Below, piece after piece: positions 9,831 through 21,722 of a stretch of 53,476 nucleotides of DNA; within the stretch, counting starts at the first letter, position 1; each line of letters starts with the position of its first letter. This DNA is from Opitutales bacterium (GTDB lineage Bacteria > Verrucomicrobiota > Verrucomicrobiia > Opitutales > Oceanipulchritudinaceae), in the NCBI GenBank assembly GCA_020831525.1, contig JAFIGH010000026.1:1-53476 (forward strand), in the 5' to 3' direction. The notes under the pieces are model-generated. The model saw only the letters and a list, made by a program, of their open reading frames with translations, was not told the origin of the DNA and did no database searches. A program made the position numbers and the translations under genes.

Positions 9831-10940
9831 GTGATGGGCATGTTGAAGGATCGGAATTGGCGAAAGCATTGGCGGCGGGCAGTGTTCGGGGTTTGCATCC
9901 TTGCGGGATGCGGTGCCCCCGTCTTCGGTGAGGCGGATGCCCTCGCGGATTTCCGCGCGGCGTTTGCGCCGACGGTGGAGAGCACGGAGGGACCGCCGGG
10001 CGAGGCACCGCCCGGGATGGTGTGGGTGCCGGGGGGCGAATTTTCCATGGGTATTGCCGACCCTCGGGCGTTGCAGCGAGGCGGGCGGGAGGCGATGGAG
10101 GACGCGCGGCCCGTGCACCGGGTGCGGGTGGACGGCTTTTGGATGGCGAAGACGCCGGTGACGAACCGGGAGTTTGCCGAGTTTGTGGACGCGACGGGCT
10201 ATGTGACGGTGGCGGAGCGGCGCCCGGACCCGGAGGATTTTCCCGGCGTGCCGGAGGAGTATCTCGTGCCGGGTTCACTGGTGTTTTCCGACCCGCGCGA
10301 GGTGGAGGGCCTCGGCGACTACCGGCAGTGGTGGCGCTGGGCGCCGGGGGCGTATTGGCGGCGGCCCTACGGACCGGATTCGTCGGTCGAAGGCAAGGAT
10401 GAATACCCGGTGGTGCATGTCGCGTGGGCGGATGCTGCCGCCTACGCGGAGTGGGCGGGCGGCCGCCTGCCGACGGAGGCAGAGTGGGAGTTTGCGGCGC
10501 GCGGCGGTCTTTCCGGAAAGCCCTATCCGTGGGGTGAGGAGCTGATTCCGGACGGCGATTGGCGGGCGAATACATGGCAGGGCCGCTTTCCCGTGGAGAA
10601 CACGGCGGAAGACGGGCACGAGGGGCTTGCGCCGGTGAAGGCGTATCCGCCCAATGGATACGGCCTTTACGGCATGGCCGGCAACGTGTGGGAGTGGTGC
10701 GCCGATTGGTACCACGCCCGCGCCTACCGCATGCGGGCGGAGGACGGGGAGGCGGTGGACAATCCGCGCGGCCCGGAGAAGAGCTACGATCCCGCCGATC
10801 CGCGCACACCGAAGCGCTCGACGCGCGGCGGCTCCTTTCTCTGCACGGACCAGTATTGCACGCGCTACATGGTGGGCACACGCGGCCGCTCCGAGCCCGA
10901 TTCCGGAGCTGTCCACATCGGATTCCGCATCGTGAAGTAG
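9831..10940 (+). CDS. Formylglycine-generating-enzyme family lipoprotein
   Basis: A 369-residue protein of the FGE-sulfatase (SUMF1) family. The N-terminus has a lipoprotein-type signal (VFGVCILAGC, lipobox LAGC). The enzyme domain begins PGMVWVPGGEFSMG and has the usual blocks DGFWMAKTPVTNREFAEFV, GGRLPTEAEWEFAARGG, NGYGLYGMAGNVWEWCADWY and RGGSFLCTDQYC. Cys338 and Cys343 match the two copper-binding catalytic cysteines of authentic FGE (GGSxxCxxxYC), so this is likely an active oxidase that converts a sulfatase cysteine to formylglycine, rather than a catalytically empty relative. No sulfatase is encoded in the window. Export of FGE is unusual for bacteria and could mean that its substrate is periplasmic. 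Confidence 0.88.
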   Translation: MMGMLKDRNWRKHWRRAVFGVCILAGCGAPVFGEADALADFRAAFAPTVESTEGPPGEAPPGMVWVPGGEFSMGIADPRALQRGGREAMEDARPVHRVRVDGFWMAKTPVTNREFAEFVDATGYVTVAERRPDPEDFPGVPEEYLVPGSLVFSDPREVEGLGDYRQWWRWAPGAYWRRPYGPDSSVEGKDEYPVVHVAWADAAAYAEWAGGRLPTEAEWEFAARGGLSGKPYPWGEELIPDGDWRANTWQGRFPVENTAEDGHEGLAPVKAYPPNGYGLYGMAGNVWEWCADWYHARAYRMRAEDGEAVDNPRGPEKSYDPADPRTPKRSTRGGSFLCTDQYCTRYMVGTRGRSEPDSGAVHIGFRIVK

Positions 10941-12944: not shown

Positions 12945-14109
12945 CGCAAATGCCTCCGTCGATGGCGCGGAGTACGCCCACGAGCTGGGCGATGCCGCTG
13001 AAGATGGGGGCGACTTCGACGCTTTCCTCAATGGAGTGCTTCTCCTCGCCGCGCGTGATGCCGAGCGTAACCCCGGGGATGCCTTTGTCGACGAGCGCCG
13101 AGAGTTCGTTGGTGCTGGGCGCGACCTTCGGCTGAATGCCGAGGGCACCCATGATCTCGCGTGTGGCTTTGACCATGGGGTGGCTGAAATCGATGCCGCC
13201 GGGGCGGCGGCGGGCGATGATGTCGAGGCGGGCCTTGACGCGGTCCTCGGCGTTGACGCGCTCGACGATTTCGGCGATGCGGTCGTGGATGCGCGCGACC
13301 ATGCCGGGCTGCTCGCTGCGCACTTCAAAGCGCAGGGTGGCTTTGGTGGGGGCTACGTTGTAGGCGTTGCCGGCGAGGATGGACCCGAGGATGATGGCGG
13401 TGCGCGGGCGCCCGGGTGTCTCAATCCCCAGTATGTCGTCGATGACTCGGTTCAGGGCGACAATGGCGCCACTGCCGTTGGAGCGCTGCCAGTCGCGCTC
13501 TTCCTCGGTGCGCACGCTGATGTCGCCCCGGATCATGCCGAGGCTGGCGTAGCTGAGCCGCCCGATCTCGATGCCCTCCACGCAGACGGCGGCGTGGAGC
13601 GGGATTTTTGTGTTTTCAATGAAGAAACGCAGGCCCGCGAGATCGCCCTTGCCCATGCTGCGGGTGGTGCCGAGGAGGACAAGGTTGGACTTGAGGCGGA
13701 TGCCGAGGCGGTCGAGAACGGCGGGCAGCGAGGCGAGCGCGGCCGCGCCGAGGCTGTTGTCCGCGATCCCCGGGCCGACAAGGCGCGCGGGTGTGACGGA
13801 GACCGTGTGGTCGATGGATTTATCCCAGATTTTGTCGACGTGCGCGGATACGAGGACCGTGCGCTTGCCTTCGCCGCCGGGTATGAGGGCGATGGCGTTG
13901 CCCGCCTCATCGGTGGAAATGTTCTGCAGACCGCTCTCCGTGAAGCGGTCGCAGAGAAAACGCACAAGCGCTTCCTCGCCGAAGGTGGGCGAGGGGATCT
14001 CCCCGCACATGACGGCGTTGGCAAGAAGGATCTCCCGCAGTCCGGTGAGCGCCTCACGGTGGGCCGGGAGGTCCTTGATAATGGGTTCGAGCACGTCGTT
14101 GGAAAGCAT
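12937..14109 (-). CDS. M20-type hydrolase lacking the catalytic Glu-Glu
   Basis: A 390-residue protein (ATG at 14109) of the M20/M25/M40 zinc peptidase superfamily. The HxD metal site is present in VSAHVDK (His90, Asp92), the bridging Asp in GIADN (Asp117), another acidic position in VEGIEIG (Glu178), and a late His in EEKHSIEE. Where active relatives have GEEGxGDL, this protein reads TTRSMGKGDL. Thus the general-base Glu and the adjacent metal-ligand Glu are Ser151 and Met152. A classical peptidase reaction is therefore doubtful; it may be a regulatory pseudoenzyme or use other residues. It overlaps gpgS by 8 bp, which ties it to glucosylglycerate metabolism. An upstream TTG start (14184) is possible but has no family match. 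Confidence 0.75.
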   Translation of the reverse strand: MLSNDVLEPIIKDLPAHREALTGLREILLANAVMCGEIPSPTFGEEALVRFLCDRFTESGLQNISTDEAGNAIALIPGGEGKRTVLVSAHVDKIWDKSIDHTVSVTPARLVGPGIADNSLGAAALASLPAVLDRLGIRLKSNLVLLGTTRSMGKGDLAGLRFFIENTKIPLHAAVCVEGIEIGRLSYASLGMIRGDISVRTEEERDWQRSNGSGAIVALNRVIDDILGIETPGRPRTAIILGSILAGNAYNVAPTKATLRFEVRSEQPGMVARIHDRIAEIVERVNAEDRVKARLDIIARRRPGGIDFSHPMVKATREIMGALGIQPKVAPSTNELSALVDKGIPGVTLGITRGEEKHSIEESVEVAPIFSGIAQLVGVLRAIDGGICDE

Positions 14110-14402
14110 TTCTCCGGCCAGAGTGGGAGGCGCGGCAGGAATTGGCAAGGACCGTAGGTAAGGGGGGAATCCGCGGTGCCGCAAAACCGCGCCGTCTTTG
14201 CGTTACGGGGTGACGGTTCGTTCTGCGTCCGTGATGGCCCGGAGGTGAGCCGTTCAAGCCGTGAAGTATAATGTAGCAATCCACTTCCACCTTCTATCAC
14301 CAGGTAGGGTGAGGCCCGACACGATTGGGGGGCGTATGCCTCGGCCCGCATTGAGTGCGGAAACCGGATCAACCCCGCTCTGGGTCTCTTCGGCCGGGGT
14401 CT

Positions 14403-15128
14403 TTACAGCGCGGCCACCGTTTCCCGAAGAAGTGCGAGCACTTCCTCCGGGGTGGTGATTTCCTCCGATTTCAGTTGGTCAATTGTCTCCGTTCGCAACA
14501 CCCTTGCCAGGCGGGAGAGTCCGTGGAGGTGGCTGTGGTCATCGGGCGCGCAAAGGAGGAAAAACAAATGCGTCTTCTCACCCTTTTCCGCACCGAAGGC
14601 AATCGGCTCCCGGGTGCGGAGAAACGCAACCACGGTGTCGGAAATGGCCGACGGCAGCGGGCGCCGGGGATGACAAATGGCCAGGCCGCCGGGAAGGGCC
14701 GTTCTGAGAAGTGATTCGCGTTCGATCAATGAGGCAAGCAAGTGTTTGTCGTCGAGCACGTTCCCGGTGGCAACGGCAAGGCCGACCAGAGCGTCGAGGA
14801 CGGTCCGTTTGCTCGAAAGGGGTAGCCCCAACTGGATCGCGCGTTTATCGAGAGAGTCGAAGAGTCTGTGCGAGAGGATTGCCTTCGACGCGCTGGCTTC
14901 GTCCAGATCAGCTTCAAGCTTCTTTTCCAGTTCGCTCAGGCGACGGGCGTCCAGCGTTTGAATCTTCTGGTCAAGCCAATCGATAATGTCTTCCCGGCGG
15001 AAGAGGAATTGTCCGTTGATGTGTAGGCCCGGGATCTTTTCCGAGCGAACAAGGCCCTCGACAAAGCGAGTGGACCAACCGAAGTTTGCGGCGACTTCGC
15101 CGATGGTGAGCGCATCTTGTGGTTTCAT
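14403..15128 (-). CDS. HTH-EIIA(Ntr)-like regulator
   Basis: A 241-residue fusion. Residues 1-57 are a winged HTH of the excisionase/MerR-like HTH_17 class (LTIGEVAANFGWSTRFVEGL and NGQFLFRREDIIDWL). A helical linker (60-100) leads to a PTS EIIA type 2 (fructose/PtsN-like) domain at about 105-241. The phosphorylatable His is His153 in GGLAICHPRRP, matching the IPHG/IPHAR site of EIIA-Fru and PtsN proteins. It may let the phosphotransfer state of PtsP/NPr control DNA binding. It is on the same strand as cysA, 85 bp downstream of it, across a repeat array, so it could be the last gene of the sulfate operon or separate. Confidence 0.8.
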   Translation of the reverse strand: MKPQDALTIGEVAANFGWSTRFVEGLVRSEKIPGLHINGQFLFRREDIIDWLDQKIQTLDARRLSELEKKLEADLDEASASKAILSHRLFDSLDKRAIQLGLPLSSKRTVLDALVGLAVATGNVLDDKHLLASLIERESLLRTALPGGLAICHPRRPLPSAISDTVVAFLRTREPIAFGAEKGEKTHLFFLLCAPDDHSHLHGLSRLARVLRTETIDQLKSEEITTPEEVLALLRETVAAL

Positions 15129-15149
15129 GAATGACGGTGGGTGGGTGTA

Positions 15150-15219
15150 GCTGTTGGGCTGTTAGGTGTTTAGGCTGTTAGGTGGATAGGTGCTGATCCG
15201 TGACCCCTAACCCCTAAAC
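15150..15219. repeat. Degenerate heptamer-type repeat, cysA 3' junction
   Basis: On the plus strand GGCTGTT, AGGTGTTT, AGGCTGTT and AGGTGGAT follow one another, then an 11-base loop (CTGATCCGTGA), then CCCCTAACCCCTAAAC. The two sides form an imperfect inverted repeat (TTAGGTGG against CCCCTAA). The TAG stop codon of cysA (15214-15216) is inside the last unit. It is the same kind of repeat seen after cysW and cysT. Confidence 0.7.
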
Positions 15220-16287
15220 GGCCAGCTTCCCATCCTTGATATCGGCTTCGAGGAATTCGCCTTTGGGGAAGAGGCGAACGTGGCGAAAGACGACCGAGAC
15301 GACTTTTCCGGGGGCCAGTTCCAGCTCGCGGAGGCGTTCGCGGGGCACTTCGGCTTCGAAGGGCTCGTGCGTCCCGACGCGCTCCAGCCTGACCCGCCCG
15401 TAGTTGCCGGCGGAGAAGATATGCTGGACCTTGGCCTTGAGGGAATATTCGTGCGTTTCGCTGCCTTCCGGCTCCAGTTCGACGTCGTGCGGACGCACAT
15501 AGAGAACGTCCTTCGGCTTGTCCCCGGCCTTGCCGCTGACGCCGGCCGTGAAGCGGTTCACGTTGCCGAGAAATTCAATGACAAAGGGGGAGACGGGGCG
15601 GTCGTAGACCTGTTGGGGGGGACCCTTCTGCTCGATCTTCGCATTGTTCATCACGACCACCTCATCGGCCAGTTCGAGCGCTTCCTCCTGGTCGTGGGTC
15701 ACGAAGATCGTCGTCACTTTGATTTCTTCCTGGAAGGTGCGCAGCCAGCGCCGCAGATCCTTGCGCACTTTGGCGTCGAGAGCACCGAAGGGTTCATCGA
15801 GGAGGAGCACTTTCGGGTTGACGGCAAGGGCGCGGGCGAGGGCCACGCGCTGGCGCTGACCGCCGGACAGCTCGCTGGGGTAGCGCTTTTGCAAACCGTC
15901 GAGTTGCACGAGTTGCAGGAGTTCGTTTACGCGGGCGTGAATGGCCGCCTTGTCCGGGCGCTCGGATCGTTTCATTGAGCGCAGTCCAAAAGCAATGTTG
16001 TCGGCGACCGTCATGTGCTTGAAGAGGGCGTAGTGCTGGAAGACAAAGCCCACGCCGCGCTTGCCCGCCTGTGTCGCGGTCACGTCCTCGCCGTGGAAGA
16101 GGACTTTCCCGTTCGAGCCCGGGTCGGCGAAATCCAATCCTGCGAGGATGCGCAGGAGAGTTGTTTTTCCCGATCCCGAGGGACCGAGGAGGGAGACGAG
16201 CTTACCGTCGGGAACTTCGAGGGATACGTCCTCAAGGGCGGTGTAGTTGCCGAAGGTTTTGCGAATATGGATGGCTTGGATACTCAT
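15214..16287 (-). CDS. cysA: Sulfate/thiosulfate ABC transporter ATPase
   Basis: A 357-residue ATP-binding subunit that powers sulfate/thiosulfate import with CysT and CysW. Walker A is GPSGSGKT (35-42), followed by the Q-loop FVFQHYALF, signature [15 protein letters not shown], Walker [13 protein letters not shown] and the H-loop VTHDQ. A C-terminal TOBE-like domain (about 240-357: [29 protein letters not shown]) is as in CysA. The ATG at 16287 starts [13 protein letters not shown], as is usual; the frame extends 21 codons upstream into repeat sequence, which I exclude. No clear Shine-Dalgarno sequence is visible, because the repeat hairpin ends six bases before the ATG. The stop codon lies in another repeat. 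Confidence 0.95.
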
Positions 16288-16390
16288 TTGTAAAGGCTGT
16301 AGGTATTTAGGCTGAAGGCTGTAGGTGTTTAGGCTGTAGGGTTGAGGCATGGTTGGCCTATAGCCTATTTCCCTACAGTCTAAATACCTA
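16288..16390. repeat. Heptamer-type repeat hairpin between cysW and cysA
   Basis: The whole cysW-cysA spacer is repeat. The left arm (16300-16319, TAGGTATTTAGGCTGAAGGC) pairs with the right arm (16371-16390) at 17 of 20 positions. Between them are further GGCTGTAGG and GTGTTTAGG units and a CCTATAGCC unit. The cysW stop codon TAG (16388-16390) forms the end of the right arm. The sequence could form a large stem-loop in the operon mRNA. Confidence 0.8.
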
Positions 16391-17251
16391 ACCGCCCGCT
16401 TTCCATTCGATGATGTTTTTGAGGACGAGGGTGAGGAGGGCGAGGAGGGTGAGAATGGAGGAGAGGGCGAAGGCCGGCACGGTAGCGTATTCGAAATAGA
16501 GGGTCTCGATGTAGAGCGGCATCGTGCTCGTCATTCCCTTGATGTTGCCGGAGACCACGGCGACCGCGCCGAACTCGCCCATGGCCCGCGCGTTGCAGAG
16601 AATGAGCCCGTAGAAGAGGCCCCATTTGACGTTGGGCAGGGTCACGCGCAGGAAGGTGCGCCAGCCGCTCGCACCGAGCGTGAGGGCGGCGTATTCCTCA
16701 TCGCGTCCCTGGGATTGCATGAGCGGAATCAGTTCGCGCGCGACAAAGGGAAGGGTGATGAACATGGTCGCAAGGACGATACCGGGGAGGGCGAAGATGA
16801 CGCGGATGCCCTGGCTCTCAAACCAGGGGCCAAGCCAGCCATGGGTGCCGCTGAAGATGAGGACAAAGATCAGTCCCGCAATGACCGGGGAGACGGCGAA
16901 GGGGAGGTCGATGACCGTGGTGAGAAGGCTCTTTCCGCGAAAACTGAATTTGGTGATGGCCCAGGCGGCGGCGAGGCCGAAGACCGTGGTCACGGGCACG
17001 CAAATGAGGGCAACCGTGAGCGTGAGGCGAATGGCGGCAAGAGCGTTCTCGTCCTCGAAGGTGGCTATAAAGGCGGGAATCCCGCGGCGGAAGGCCTCGA
17101 AGAAGACCGAGAACAGCGGAATGAGGAGGAAGAAGAGAAGGAACCCGGCCGCGAGGCCCATGAGCGTATACCGCATCCAGCGGGGCTCGCTGATGGCGCT
17201 TTGGGTCTTGGGAACCTTGTCGGTGCGGAATCTGGAAATGATGGAAGGCAT
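16388..17251 (-). CDS. cysW: Sulfate ABC transporter permease
   Basis: A 287-residue inner-membrane permease of the sulfate/thiosulfate importer. It has about six hydrophobic helices and the cytoplasmic EAA loop ([22 protein letters not shown], about 195-216), which docks onto CysA. The sequences [16 protein letters not shown] and [13 protein letters not shown] match CysW. The gene follows cysT in the same direction, but a repeat-bounded four-helix-bundle gene on the other strand separates them by 485 bp. The upstream array ends eight bases before the ATG and no Shine-Dalgarno sequence is visible. The stop codon is inside the next repeat. It partners CysT (17737-18624). Confidence 0.93.
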
Positions 17252-17258
17252 TGTGGAA

Positions 17259-17291
17259 GGCTGTAGGCTGTGGGCTGTGGGCTGTGGGGGG
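17259..17291 (+). repeat. Left heptamer array (four GGCTGTR units)
   Basis: Units GGCTGTA (17259-17265) and GGCTGTG (17266-17272, 17273-17279, 17280-17286) are perfectly in phase and followed by a G-rich tail. The array begins seven bases upstream of the cysW start codon, read on the minus strand. Confidence 0.9.
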
Positions 17292-17340
17292 TGGATTTTT
17301 GGGCTTGAGGATTCTATTTTTCCGGGATGAATCTTTTGGG

Positions 17341-17700
17341 ATGCGCGACCACCGGAAGTTGAGGACGTTTGAGCTGGCGGATCGTCTTGCTTTGCGAACG
17401 TATGAAGTCACGCGCTCGTTTCCCAAAGAGGAATTGTATGGGCTCACTTCGCAGATGCGCCGTGCGTCCGTATCGGTGCCGAGCAACATTGTAGAGGGGT
17501 GTGCCCGCTCGACGCAGGCAGAGTATTTGCGCTTCCTTGAGATTGCTTTCGGATCGTTGCGGGAGTTGCACTATCAATTCAGCCTGGCAGGTCGTCTTGG
17601 TTATCTGAGTCATGATGAACTTGGTTTGATTTTGGAACAGTGTTCTGAAGCGGAAAGGGTGATCGGGGGTCTCATGCGCGCCCTCCGCCACAGCCCATAG
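17341..17700 (+). CDS. Four-helix-bundle protein (S23/IVP, TIGR02436 type)
   Basis: A 119-residue protein of the four-helix-bundle family named after the 23S rRNA intervening-sequence protein; the family also includes Avd-like accessory proteins of diversity-generating retroelements. The hallmarks RKLRTFELADRLALRTYEVT, FPKEELYGLTSQMRRASVSVPSNI, EGCARST and EYLRFLEIAFGSLRELHYQ are all there, and the length is typical. The ATG at 17341 gives the family start RDHRKL; the longer frame from 17251 runs through the repeat and is excluded. Its TAG stop (17698-17700) is made by a heptamer unit. It lies opposite to, and inside, the cys operon. No rRNA or reverse transcriptase is nearby, so the usual roles do not apply directly. 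Confidence 0.9.
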   Translation: MRDHRKLRTFELADRLALRTYEVTRSFPKEELYGLTSQMRRASVSVPSNIVEGCARSTQAEYLRFLEIAFGSLRELHYQFSLAGRLGYLSHDELGLILEQCSEAERVIGGLMRALRHSP

Positions 17701-17739
17701 CCCACAGCCCACAGCCTACAGCCTACAGCCCATAGCCTA
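17689..17739 (+). repeat. Right heptamer array (seven units) abutting the cysT stop
   Basis: Seven tandem seven-base units from 17689 to 17737 (CACAGCC, CATAGCC, CACAGCC, CACAGCC, TACAGCC, TACAGCC, CATAGCC) are inverted relative to the left array. The last base of the array is the first base of the cysT stop codon (CTA, read as TAG, at 17737-17739). The array also supplies the stop codon of the four-helix-bundle gene. Confidence 0.9.
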
Positions 17740-18624
17740 GCTCCTCGCTTGCCCGATGGACTCGGTCCAGCGCTGAAGCAGGTTGATAACGAGGAGGAGG
17801 ACGAAGGAGAAGACGAGCATGACGGCGGCCACGGCGGTCGCTTCGGCGTATTGGTATTGTTCGAGAAATTTGACGATGATGAGCGGGGTGATCTCGGTGC
17901 GCATGGGCATGTTGCCGGAGATGAAGATGACCGACCCGTACTCACCAATGGCGCGGGCGAAGGCGAGGGCGAAGCCCGTGAGCATGGCCGGTATGAGCGC
18001 GGGCAGGACGATGCGGCACAGGGTCCGGGTGCGGCTGGCACCGAGGGAGGCGGCCGCCTCCTCGACCTCGGCGTTCAGGTCCTCAATGACGGGCTGGACG
18101 GTGCGGACGACAAACGGAATGCCGATAAAGGTGAGGGCGATGAAGATGCCGACTTTTGAGTAGGCTGTCTCAATGCCGATTGCGTAGAAGTATTGGCCGA
18201 GCCAGCCGGTTTGGGCGTAAAGGGCGGTCAGGGCGATCCCCGCGACGGCCGTGGGCAGGGCGAAGGGCAGGTCGACCATGCCATCGAGCAGTTTTCGTCC
18301 GGGGAATTGATAGCGCACAAGGACCCACGCGACAATCAAGCCAAAGAAGGCATTCGTGCAGGCGGCGGCGAGGGAGACGCCGAAGGTCACTTTGTAGGTG
18401 GCCACGACCTGGCGGGAGGTGACGACACGCCAAAAATCCTCCCAGGTCATTTGGGCGGTGAGGACAAAGACGCCTGCAAGCGGAATCATGACGAGCAAAC
18501 CGAGGTAGGCGAGCGTGATGCCCATGGAGAGGCCGAAGCCGGGAATGACGCGTCGGTTTGGTTGAGGAGGCTTCGTGGGTGGCATATTTAAGTGTCGGTT
18601 GACCGGTGACTTATGGGTTGTCAT
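17737..18624 (-). CDS. cysT: Sulfate ABC transporter permease
   Basis: A 295-residue permease, the second membrane subunit of the sulfate importer (also called CysU). It has six or so transmembrane helices, and the EAA motif is EEAAASLGASRTRTLCRIVLP (about 182-202). DLPFALPTAVAGIALTALY and GEYGSVIFISGNMP are diagnostic for CysT. The ATG at 18624 precedes a hydrophilic Pro-rich N-terminus; ATG 18585 (MPPTKPPQPN) is an alternative start. The gene starts 12 bp after the stop of the M14 gene, in the same direction. Its stop codon touches the heptamer array, so any read-through transcript to cysW must cross the inserted unit. Confidence 0.93.
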   Translation of the reverse strand: MTTHKSPVNRHLNMPPTKPPQPNRRVIPGFGLSMGITLAYLGLLVMIPLAGVFVLTAQMTWEDFWRVVTSRQVVATYKVTFGVSLAAACTNAFFGLIVAWVLVRYQFPGRKLLDGMVDLPFALPTAVAGIALTALYAQTGWLGQYFYAIGIETAYSKVGIFIALTFIGIPFVVRTVQPVIEDLNAEVEEAAASLGASRTRTLCRIVLPALIPAMLTGFALAFARAIGEYGSVIFISGNMPMRTEITPLIIVKFLEQYQYAEATAVAAVMLVFSFVLLLVINLLQRWTESIGQARS

Positions 18625-18636
18625 TTGGTTTGGGTT

Positions 18637-19494
18637 TCAGATGCCCCAGCTGTGGGCAAGGAAGCGGCGGTATTGCTTGAGGATGGCGATGACGGCGGTC
18701 GACCCGGCGGAGACCTGTGCGCTCATGGGCGCGGTCCCCGGCGTTTGGAGAATGATCTCAAAGGGCCAGCCGCGCAGGGCGGGCGGGGGCCGGAGAACCT
18801 CGGGGAGGCATTCTTCGATCATGCCTTCAGCGGCGTGGAAACCGTCGGGGGTGGAGTTGCCGTTGAGGGGAAGAATGCGGGAGGCCTCTTCCAGCGCGGG
18901 TTCAAGCAGGTGGCGCCCAATTTGGCGCCCCTGTGTGTAGCCATAGAGGCCGTCGCTTTTGTGATCGGTGTGCAGGCTGATCAATCCATCAAGGCGCTGT
19001 TTCCTGAGTTCCGCTTCGAGAATGCGCGTCTCACCTTCGGTCGATCCGGTCCAGAAGGAACGGTTGAGGTCGGTGCCATTGGCGTTGTTGCGCGAGTTAA
19101 AGAGCAGTCCCCAGGGATTGCAGGCCGGATAAATGTGCAGCTCATAGCCGTTTAAAAGCGAGGGGTCGGCGGTGAAGCGCAGGAGAATGGCCTCGCAAAT
19201 GAGGGTCCCCGCGCGCTCGTTTCCATGAATGCCCCCGAAGATTCCCAGAACCTTGCGTTCCACATCATTCTCCCGCGGGCCCAGACAGATGTATTTGTCG
19301 ATCTCGAAGCGAAATCCGTTTGCTTCGAATGTGTCGAGGACCCTTCGGTCAACGGCTTTCGCTCCCGGACCTTCGAGTGTCCGTTTTCGCAGGGCGATGG
19401 TGTTGTTCTGAGTGGTGAAACCAACGCTCAGCTGTGGTGTGATGGCGGACATCGCTTGATGGGGGAGGGAGGGATTTAAACGGGGGGCGGTCAT
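18637..19494 (-). CDS. M14/AstE-type zinc hydrolase
   Basis: A 285-residue zinc carboxypeptidase-like protein, related to succinylglutamate desuccinylases and aspartoacylases. The zinc ligands His90 and Glu93 are in GGIHGNERAG and His175 in SLHTDHK; the Arg motif is NGTDLNRSF (Arg145), and a possible catalytic Glu is Glu246 in PFEIILQTPG. The active site therefore looks complete. Substrate is unknown; an N-acyl amino acid or a small amide is a reasonable guess. It lies in the sulfate operon between the inactive-looking paralogue and cysT. The ATG at 19494 was chosen; ATG 19452 is another option. A TTG at 19524 overlapping the previous gene is possible too. Confidence 0.75.
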   Translation of the reverse strand: MTAPRLNPSLPHQAMSAITPQLSVGFTTQNNTIALRKRTLEGPGAKAVDRRVLDTFEANGFRFEIDKYICLGPRENDVERKVLGIFGGIHGNERAGTLICEAILLRFTADPSLLNGYELHIYPACNPWGLLFNSRNNANGTDLNRSFWTGSTEGETRILEAELRKQRLDGLISLHTDHKSDGLYGYTQGRQIGRHLLEPALEEASRILPLNGNSTPDGFHAAEGMIEECLPEVLRPPPALRGWPFEIILQTPGTAPMSAQVSAGSTAVIAILKQYRRFLAHSWGI

Positions 19495-19520
19495 GGATAT
19501 CTGAATACGTGGAGTTTGCC

Positions 19521-20273
19521 TCAAACGGTCAGAGTCTCCCTCTTGGAGTCAGGTTGGGGATGGAGGTTCGCCTGGGATTGCAGATGGCGGAAGAAGACGA
19601 GGAGCCACTGGCTGGCGAAGTGAGTCGCCGCAGACGGATTCCAGGAAGCCGGAATGGCAATGTAGAGGTTCCACGGAACCCGTGCCGAAGCCGGTAATTC
19701 ATTGACCTGGAAACGATAGCGGGTGTCCGGGGAGCCGTCGCCCTCGCTGGCGAGGCGGTCAGTGCTTTCAACGGCGGCATAGGCGGCCTCCTTCCATTCG
19801 GGATCGGCCCGCAGGCCGATGGCGGGAAAGGCGCGGTTGGATGTGGCAATTTCGATCACACCATGGCCGCAGCGCAGGCGCACGGCTTCGTCGATCTCCC
19901 CCAACTCGGCCGGGGGCGCAGCCTCGTTGCCGCGTTCGAGCCCGACGGGATCAAGTACCGGGAGTATACGCAGCCAGAGTCCCTCCCCGAGACCGGGCTG
20001 GAGGACCAACCGCTCGATCAACTGAAGGGTGACCTCAGCGCTCAGGCGGTCGCCCCCGTGCCGCCCGGCAACGAGCCCAATGAAGCGGGTCGGGCCGTCC
20101 GGGGGAATCGGGCCCCGAAAGCTGAAAGCGGGCACGGCATACTTTACACCGTGGTGGTAAAGCGTGCGTTCGAGGGTGCCGGTGAGATTGGGTGCGATCT
20201 CGCAGTGTTCGACATACCCGAGGAGAAGATCGCGAAGGGCTTCGCGATGGTGGCGTTCGATCGTTTTTTTCAT
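19521..20273 (-). CDS. Degenerate M14-like paralogue
   Basis: A 250-residue protein with the same order of elements as the neighbouring M14 hydrolase: a hydrophobic strand plus turn (GLVAGRHGGDRLSAE), then WLRILPVLDPVGLERGN, which parallels HIYPACNPWGLLFNS. The metal site is altered: HGNE is replaced by HGGD (His72, Asp75), and no NRSF-like Arg motif is visible. It may be an inactive partner or have a changed reaction. The gene overlaps the upstream mini-protein gene by 4 bp (ATGA) and ends close to or overlaps the next gene, so the three seem to be translated as a unit. Family assignment rests on this pairwise pattern only. Confidence 0.6.
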   Translation of the reverse strand: MKKTIERHHREALRDLLLGYVEHCEIAPNLTGTLERTLYHHGVKYAVPAFSFRGPIPPDGPTRFIGLVAGRHGGDRLSAEVTLQLIERLVLQPGLGEGLWLRILPVLDPVGLERGNEAAPPAELGEIDEAVRLRCGHGVIEIATSNRAFPAIGLRADPEWKEAAYAAVESTDRLASEGDGSPDTRYRFQVNELPASARVPWNLYIAIPASWNPSAATHFASQWLLVFFRHLQSQANLHPQPDSKRETLTV

Positions 20274-20626
20274 ATGAAGAATGGATTTAGGTTCTGCTTG
20301 TTGTTGAAAAAGCGGCAGCCAACGGCGATGTGGATAGCTTCGGTTGTTGTTGTCCGGTTCGCATGGTTAAATGCCGCGACAACGATTGCGGCTTCGGAGT
20401 TATGGGCCGCAAAGAATTCCGGAGAGGTGAAGTCTTCCGGCTCATCACGCTCCCCCGATCCGTCCGCCGATTCCTTGAAAATCAGTGCCCAACGATCCTC
20501 AAGGTTACCCAGAGGAGCGAGGTATTCGGCCTTCAGAATGACCCGCGGGGTTCCCGGCCCCGCTGCCTGAAGTTCAAGCAGCGGGGTGGGAAACAGCGCA
20601 TCCGCTATGGATGTGTGGATGGACAT
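20270..20626 (-). CDS. Small protein resembling the N-terminus of cysteine synthase
   Basis: A 118-residue protein (ATG 20626, MSIHTSIADALF). Residues 12-55 resemble the start of cysteine synthase CysK: PTPLLELQ, then VILKAEYLAPLGNLEDRWAL, compared with the family pattern TPLVxL and LxKxEYxNPxGSVKDRxAL. The PLP-binding Lys of SVKDR is Glu43 here, and the rest of the PLP enzyme is missing, so it cannot be an active synthase. The second half (65-110, with TTTTEAIHIAVGCRFF) does not match CysK, so the resemblance may be limited. It overlaps the next gene by 4 bp and follows the sulfate-binding protein gene by 52 bp. A role sensing or binding a sulfur metabolite is possible. Confidence 0.5.
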   Translation of the reverse strand: MSIHTSIADALFPTPLLELQAAGPGTPRVILKAEYLAPLGNLEDRWALIFKESADGSGERDEPEDFTSPEFFAAHNSEAAIVVAAFNHANRTTTTEAIHIAVGCRFFNNKQNLNPFFI

Positions 20627-20678
20627 CGTCTTCCGAATAGGCGTTTGAGGGATTGCTCCGCTGTGTTGGACCAACCGC

Positions 20679-21722
20679 TTACTGCAGATAGATTTGGTCG
20701 AACGTGCCGCCGTCGCGGAAGTGTTTCTCATTGGCCGGACCCCAGCCGCCGAAGACTTCGTCAATCGTGAAGAGTTTCAGGTTGGGATACTGGTCCTTGT
20801 ACTTCTCGAGGAACCGGGGATTGCTCGGGCGGTAGAAGTGCTTGCCCGCGAGGTCCTGTCCTTCATTGGAATACAGGTATTGCAAGTAGGCTTCGGCGAC
20901 TTCGCGCGTTCCCTTGCGCTCAACATTGCGGTCGACCACTGCCACGGTGGGCTCGGCAAGAATGCTGACGGAGGGCACCACGATCTCGAAATCGTCAGCA
21001 AACCGCTGAATACCGAGGAGCAACTCGTTTTCCCAGTTGATGAGGACGTCCCCGATGCGGCGTTCGATGAAGGTCGTCGAGGCTCCGCGTGCGGCCGTAT
21101 CGAGCACGGGCACATTGGCGAAGAGTTTCTTGATGTAGTCGAGAACCTTTGCCTGGTCGCCGTTGAACTCGGATTCGGCCCAGCCCCACGCCGCGAGATA
21201 GTTCCAGCGGGCCACCCCGGAAGTTTTTGGGTTGGGCGTGATGACGGAGACACCCGGACGTGCGAGGTCATCCCAGTTGCGAATGTTCTTGGGATTTCCC
21301 TTGCGAACAAGGAAGGCGAGGGTGGACTGGTAGGGGGCGCTGTTTTCGGGCAGGCGGGACTGCCAATCAGCAGAGGTGAGACCACGCTCGGCAATGGCGT
21401 TGACATCGGCGGCGAGGGCCAGGGTGACGACATCGGCCTCAATGCCGTCGATGACGGCACGGGCTTGTCGGCCGGAGCCCCCGTGTGACTGGCGCACAAT
21501 CACGCGGTCGCCGGTCTTTTCAAACCAATGGGCGGCGAAGGCCTGGTTGAATTCGGCATAGAATTCGCGCGTCGGGTCATAAGAAACGTTCAGCATCTCA
21601 ATGCGCTGACCCCCCCGGGCGGCATCGTCGTCGCCCCTTCCGCAATCTGTGGCGATGAGCGTGGCGAGAGCGGCGGTGGCGGCAAGGGCCCCGCGTTGTA
21701 TCCATTTTTTGTTTAGTTTCAT
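20679..21722 (-). CDS. sbp: Sulfate/thiosulfate-binding protein
   Basis: A 347-residue periplasmic solute-binding protein of the Sbp/CysP family, which delivers sulfate or thiosulfate to CysTWA. The signal peptide ([21 protein letters not shown]) has a cysteine at residue 27 but Asp before it, so it is not a good lipobox. Typical family blocks are [108 protein letters not shown] and [13 protein letters not shown]. It starts 44 bp after the porin stop. It heads the transporter part of the operon. Confidence 0.94.

Follow-up and report, generated by a model that had tools for sequence, protein, structure and literature searches.

The window, a stretch of 53,476 nucleotides from an Opitutales bacterium, carries between cysW and cysT a unit that is probably one copy of a widespread small element, mobile now or formerly, which is similar to the intervening sequences (IVSs) of rRNA, lies outside rRNA and has gene-less derivatives. 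From the sequences, the recurrence of this class of element across bacterial groups is well supported and its past mobility is supported. The unit and its surroundings consist of the following features.

15214..16350 (longest ORF), minus strand: cysA-like ABC ATPase, found by profile, start set by eye.
About 16293..16392, no strand: inverted pair of degenerate heptamers of the GGCTGTA type, without a gene, in the gap from cysA to cysW, found by sequence reading and fold.
16388..17251, minus strand: cysW, left neighbour of the insert, by profile above the CysW equivalog cut-off.
17259..17286, plus strand: left arm, four tandem GGCTGTR heptamers (28 bp), found by sequence reading and repeat search.
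17302..17345, plus strand: leader, lying between the left arm and the start codon, identical in genome G006 at 41 of 44 positions.
17341..17700, plus strand: S23/IVP four-helix-bundle gene (119 aa), above the cut-offs of PF05635 and TIGR02436.
17689..17737, minus strand: right arm, seven inverted GGCTRTR heptamers, found by sequence reading and repeat search.
17737..18624, minus strand: cysT, right neighbour of the insert, by profile above the CysT equivalog cut-off; its stop codon abuts the right arm at 17737.

The insert is 479 bp long. An earlier note on this DNA had described four heptamers on the left and seven inverted ones on the right, and both arrays were found as claimed when we read them again. 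The left arm is one GGCTGTA followed by three GGCTGTG, and its comparison with the reverse complement of 17696-17723 gave a single mismatch in 28 positions, which agrees with the identity of 27 in 28 claimed before. The profile scores also bear out that the only gene between the arrays is of the TIGR02436 type, opposite in strand to the cys genes and with cysW and cysT as neighbours. Its likely start is the ATG at 17341, and its stop codon TAG (17698-17700) does lie within the right array. In the repeat search the two arms are joined by an inverted pair of 37 nt with 92% complementarity, and the whole unit has a predicted fold with a z of -3.81. With at most one mismatch, GGCTGTRGGCTGTR has 10 matches in the window compared with a shuffled mean of 0.05. 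The exact two-unit pattern is confined to the window locus, with 6 overlapping matches in the 184 contigs (5.30 Mb) of the genome, and the reversed-pattern control has 0. An Rfam scan of 13000-21000 returned zero matches, and at up to 14 mismatches the leader was found at no locus besides that of G006 among the loci compared.

Profile scans in the window covered six proteins. The protein of the unit belongs to the S23/IVP family, with 113.8 bits against PF05635 (cut-off 33.8) and 114.8 bits against TIGR02436 (cut-off 24). Its fold is known because its sequence matches PDB 2gsc (XCC0516) with an E of 2.1e-22, and in an alignment of 20 sequences the residues Q35, S42, N46, E49, G50 and E72 are invariant. 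In the profile search it matches no transposase family, only PF05635 and, below the cut-off, PF22296.

The gene-less pair between cysA and cysW has a 20-bp stem (16322-16341 / 16371-16390) and folds with a z of -5.53; its units are more degenerate than those at the window gene. By eye, the first 21 codons of the longest cysA reading frame enter this hairpin, and so the true start is probably the ATG at 16287. Four other TIGR02436 matches exist in the genome. In a period-7 scan, two of them have heptamer arms of other units, GTGATGG at L008 (inverted similarity 4.96 of 7) and AAATCCT at L009 (5.50 of 7), while the same scan found no heptamer arms at the remaining two, L010 and L011. We considered whether the arrangement is a peculiarity of one genome and rejected this, since the unit differs by element and a search for GGCTRTR only overlooks the arms of L008 and L009 that the period-7 scan finds.

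The earlier reading, that of a discrete unit inserted with tandem repeats at its ends, is backed by gene-free sites in relatives. Of 55 related genomes searched for CysW, 13 passed the strict limit. The unit is present between cysT and cysW in G000 and in G006, which represents another genus of the same family, and their unit proteins are 72% identical. In the other 11 there is no room for a gene between the tblastn ends of cysT and cysW, and when G008, G001, G005, G029, G011 and G019 were read base by base, neither the gene nor the arrays were present at this junction. CysW of G008 is 84% identical to that of the window and CysW of G006 only 66%, yet it is G008 that has no unit; therefore a loss in the line of G008 or more than one gain must be assumed. 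The cysA-cysW gap of G006 contains a series of directly oriented related heptamers, which is missing from G008, G001 and G005. The earlier note had tied the heptamers to the gene. This stands in so far as the six gene-free relatives are array-less at cysT-cysW and arrays are rarer away from such genes, but not throughout, as GGCTRTR arrays without an adjoining S23/IVP gene exist in G006 and G008. Two loci of G006, L018 (C177) and L022 (C179), each have at about 1501-1528 a GGCTGTA-type array within the stretch that seems to encode the signal peptide of a predicted protein, and neither locus yielded an S23/IVP gene.

The association between arrays and gene extends over the phylum, where 301 of 387 sampled genomes have TIGR02436 matches. 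Around the best-scoring matches listed, 80 regions of 6.4-15.7 kb were chosen (G375 was taken twice), and a custom profile recovers a TIGR02436-type gene in all 80. At a score limit of 14, period-7 arrays were found in 45 of 195 flanks of these genes compared with 28 of 980 flanks of other genes, the controls being greedy long ORFs. In non-coding DNA, arrays near the genes (57 in 18,149 bases) have about 6.5 times the density of those far from them (53 in 109,124). Among other periods from 4 to 15, only 14 (10 at genes vs 8 at controls), 8 (8 vs 3) and 4 (2 vs 0) were relatively higher beside TIGR02436-type genes, with no relative excess in the rest. The ParE control, drawn from the same phylum sample, had arrays in 0 of 48 flanks, with 24 of its 30 loci usable; for the TIGR02436-type genes it was 13 of 56, with 28 of 30 loci usable. 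There were zero period-7 arrays in 18 regions (314 kb) of genomes without the gene, after 2 of 20 regions below 4 kb were dropped, and 3 in 15 random regions (280 kb) of gene-rich genomes, after 5 of 20 were dropped on the same ground. As these control regions are nearly array-free, the arrays are concentrated at such genes more than they are spread through their genomes.

For two-sided counts the score limit was 11. Among 100 genes (the 80 regions, the window and L012), 20 have arrays on both sides, 13 on the left only and 23 on the right only. In the 20 two-sided genes, the window's own included, the units of the two sides mirror each other with a similarity of 6.15 of 7, compared with 3.74 (sd 0.21) when permuted (0/5000). 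From gene to gene the units vary, AGTGGCT, AGCTTAA, ATCGTGA, GGGGAAC, AATGCGG and GGCTGTG being found among the 20. Three further loci may be described. At L156 (5783-5993) one arm is spaced at 8 nt (TTAGGCTA / TTAGACTG) with 7-nt units downstream, and such octamer variants are in line with the small excess at period 8. At L153 (1650-10758) one S23/IVP gene with GAATCGT as its unit is surrounded, within 12 kb, by several mirrored pairs of that unit. L104 has at about 10500-10521 roughly three units of the TAACTGA type, the heptamer treated in PMC4679880, before its S23/IVP gene.

Outside the phylum, the best 80 of at least 588 confirmed TIGR02436 loci on named genome contigs were taken. Thiohalocapsa, Clostridia, Acidobacteria, Planctomycetota, Bacteroidota, Chloroflexi, candidate phyla and an archaeal MAG are among the matches listed. 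Both arms were found at 29 of the 81 genes of this set, a left arm only at 14 and a right arm only at 10. The mirror similarity of the 29 is 5.99 compared with 3.73 when permuted (0/5000). Mirrored units are present in 27 of them; L239 and L273 have arrays in direct orientation on both sides, which counts against our reading. (About 100 bp downstream, L273 has other units that look inverted.) Also counting against it, no array was found at the limits used for 44 of the 100 genes of the phylum set and 28 of the 81 of the other set. The two sets overlap, as the arms of L236 and L105 are identical and likewise those of L277 and L097, and they contain close relatives (L100/L104 and L091/L093), so that the permutation results are somewhat generous.

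In a plasmid collection, 32 records match the family, mostly from cyanobacteria. At the 12 loci examined, arms lie on both sides in 9 by program and in L330 and L333 by eye, while L331 has a right arm only. The flank counts, the mirror permutations and these plasmid copies support that the window unit is one of a wide class. At L324 the outer left array is the mirrored one, and at L330 an unrelated hairpin-like stretch upstream of 2495 apparently interrupts the left arm. The copies of L322, L324 and L333 sit within runs of CRISPR-cas genes (cas6 to cas4; cas10 to a cmr3-family gene); in the part of PMC3936711 available, 18 genes of the S23/IVP family are reported in cas loci.

A second junction with filled and gene-free forms is accB-accC in Xanthomonadaceae (accB, accC, rpoB and rpoC were identified by eye). 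The single TIGR02436 gene of an X. arboricola genome encodes a protein matching PDB 2gsc (XCC0516) with an E of 1.8e-62 and lies, by eye, between accB and accC, with four GGGAATC-type heptamers per side as arms. Among 30 loci, the gene with arms is present at accB-accC in 10 and absent in 20. Six of the 10 filled loci have an insert of 434-444 bp with 28-bp (4x7) arms, the last base of the right one directly preceding accC. In 15 of the 20 unfilled loci no more than about 15 nt separate the end of accB from accC, and the other five carry some other sequence there. Two of these five, L366 and L386, show arm-like pieces; in L386 (G454), heptamer-like CCGGNNN-type units flank a short spacer. Runs of at least three GGGANTN-type units on both sides occur in 13 of the 30 Xanthomonadaceae loci examined. 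Gene-less pairs with four-unit arms are found at L285 (rpoB-rpoC) and L289, and L286 has one with 3 and 4 units.

On the level of Xanthomonadaceae genomes, with no correction for relatedness in any of these counts, GGGAATC arrays occur in 31 of the 54 that have the gene and in 8 of the 65 that lack it, GGGATTC arrays in 37 and 9, and either of the two in 41 and 11, the last 11 counting against a strict dependence. Also counting against it, the dominant unit of a genome shows no tie to the arm of its own gene (6 GGGAAT-arm and 10 GGGATT-arm genomes, p 0.15). According to the available part of PMC4692102, X. campestris pv. campestris has the GGGAATC repeat in 186 places and 70 convergent pairs of it; the same source gives only few pairs of a similar repeat in genomes of the Nostoc sp. 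PCC 7120 type, and none on plasmids, which counts against our reading. The words XCC0516, accB and four-helix do not occur in the text of that paper as available, and a search of one open-licence PMC library found no paper that links heptamer arrays to an S23/IVP gene outside rRNA.

What keeps the two arms alike may be approached through the positions of the unit. In 12 distinct arm pairs of Xanthomonadaceae, position 2 is the same in both arms in 41 of 48 cases and position 5 in 43 of 48, compared with 0.65 and 0.42 between elements; position 7 is the same in only 23 of 48, no better than the 0.46 between elements. Pairing alone should hold position 7 too, so the freedom of this position would fit a factor that reads the other positions. 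A G-rich inward strand was found for 66 of 76 left arms and 72 of 82 right arms. Four units are commonest (64 of 158 arrays), followed by five (38 of 158), and long arrays also occur. Unit similarity climbs with protein identity (Mantel r 0.157, 0/2000). Gene-less arrays resemble the unit of the gene in their region with a similarity of 5.01 compared with 3.73 when permuted (0/5000), and the value exceeds 5 in 10 of 17 regions. Since gene-less arrays thus tend to share their unit with the gene close by, they fit the mobilisation in trans that had been suggested for the window unit.

Evidence on movement itself comes from 14 pairs of loci with similar protein and unit. Ten have shared neighbours, which suggests that most of the similarity is by descent; three have no shared neighbour and the pair of the window and L156 has one unspecific match of 26%. 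We take the pairs without common neighbours, together with the gene-free junctions, to point to past movement or transfer and not to present activity. Neither a transposition nor two near-identical copies at separate sites in the same genome were seen. By eye, no target-site duplication was recognised at the filled and gene-free cysT-cysW and accB-accC junctions, where the empty relatives are not close enough.

Several known systems share part of this anatomy. With transposons and MITEs the window unit has terminal inverted repeats in common. The Avd proteins of diversity-generating retroelements have a related fold by a weak profile match, but the score of 33.1 bits is below the 80-bit cut-off of NF033474, and the neighbours here are cys genes. 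In REP/RAYT systems (REPtrons), one gene encoding RAYT, a Y1 transposase, is flanked by inverted repeats, and gene-less copies are scattered. The inverted repeats around a single gene and the scattered gene-less copies are found here as well; unlike in REP/RAYT, there is no match to a Y1 (HUH) transposase, and the tandem heptamers at the ends differ in sequence from one element to the next. The STRRs of cyanobacteria and the TAACTGA repeats are tandem heptamers and mostly intergenic. The Xanthomonas GGGAATC repeats (PMC4692102, as far as available) are likewise tandem heptamers, mostly intergenic and often in convergent inverted pairs, and GGGAATC flanks the Xanthomonas S23/IVP gene; unlike the window unit, the GGGAATC and TAACTGA repeats are described without a partner gene in the available parts of PMC4692102 and PMC4679880.

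The closest likeness is to the 23S rRNA IVS of Coxiella burnetii, which has 428 nt, an S23p ORF, a 28-bp stem and a variable number of tandem heptamers before the ORF (PMC4990558, available part, where the origin and function of rRNA intervening sequences are called unclear). The window unit and the accB-accC inserts share with it an S23/IVP ORF within terminal inverted repeats of about 28 bp, the heptamers and the size (479 and 434-444 compared with 428). The earlier view that the role in rRNA intervening sequences does not explain the arrays is therefore not upheld, because the Coxiella IVS has much the same anatomy. On the other hand, the window unit lies between the protein genes cysW and cysT and not inside a 23S rRNA gene, its ORF is opposite to the operon strand, its heptamer is another one and it has gene-less relatives. 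As it is not in rRNA, it lacks the defining feature of an IVS and is a variant rather than a member. A universal 23S motif (21 nt) had no match in the loci examined, so there was no rRNA-borne copy to compare.

Other explanations of the arrays have to be weighed against a small mobile element. We consider it unlikely that the unit is a regulatory device which does not move, in which the protein would act post-transcriptionally by binding the heptamers of its own leader and those of other mRNAs, with the scattered arrays as targets. Such a role has been proposed for the TAACTGA repeats, which in one Beggiatoaceae genome mostly stand immediately before start codons (PMC4679880, available part), and the left arm does lie directly before the gene, for instance 14 nt before the domain start at several Xanthomonadaceae loci. 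However, a leader site needs no mirrored arm behind the gene, inverted pairs are frequent among gene-less copies, both in the loci here and in the available part of PMC4692102, and at accB-accC the arms and the gene are gained or lost jointly.

It is improbable that the protein is a passenger while an unrelated transposase or host recombination moves the arms and the hairpin. The missing match to a transposase family and the existence of gene-less pairs would be expected from it, but the elements read contain no second gene between the arms, the similarity of units follows protein identity, and the presence of arrays tracks that of the gene in Xanthomonadaceae. That plain polymerase slippage in weakly constrained intergenic DNA made the arrays, with the gene there by coincidence, we regard as very improbable: array lengths vary, long arrays occur and a slippage hypothesis for period 7 is cited in the available text of PMC4692102, but slippage does not make mirrored units on two sides and is at odds with the density of arrays near these genes and with the array-free ParE genes of the same genomes.

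For the small mobile element we propose the following scheme. The autonomous form has about 430-480 bp: a short leader and one S23/IVP gene lie between a 28-bp arm of four heptamers and its inverted counterpart, and the element sits between genes, operon interiors included. Repeat slippage can lengthen an arm, as in the seven right units of the window, and the gene-less derivatives consist of arm, spacer and inverted arm. The encoded protein presumably reads the units, and this would be why they stay alike. The title of the 2gsc structure, in the reference list of PMC3936711, speaks of five four-helix bundles. An XCC0516-like pentamer ring might thus lie on tandem heptamers of single-stranded RNA or DNA with about one unit per protomer, and such five-fold binding would explain the fixed period of 7, the variable sequence and the prevalence of 4-5 units. 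A ring that meets tandem repeats at a fixed period is found in TRAP. In the weakest step of the scheme, new copies might arise via the hairpin with the help of host enzymes, which we propose because the protein matches no transposase family. The rRNA intervening sequences may be elements of this kind too, made tolerable in rRNA by RNase III cleavage at the stem. More tentatively, and with less confidence than in the element itself, we suggest a mobile class in multiple phyla with tandem-heptamer ends, in which the unit varies and a pentamer taking one unit per protomer would keep the period, the arm length and the symmetry; the heptamers of Xanthomonas, cyanobacteria and Beggiatoaceae and the 23S IVSs could then be its non-autonomous or specialised forms.

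The TIGR02436 'four helix bundle' genes are common and have no known role outside rRNA inserts, and the heptamer repeats scattered in cyanobacteria, Xanthomonas and sulfur bacteria have no known maker; these repeats may gain a source in the S23/IVP element. A tie between repeat and protein gives each a testable partner, for asking which protein reads the repeat, whether the repeat is moved and why the period is 7. If the tie holds, the rRNA intervening sequences would belong to a wider family.
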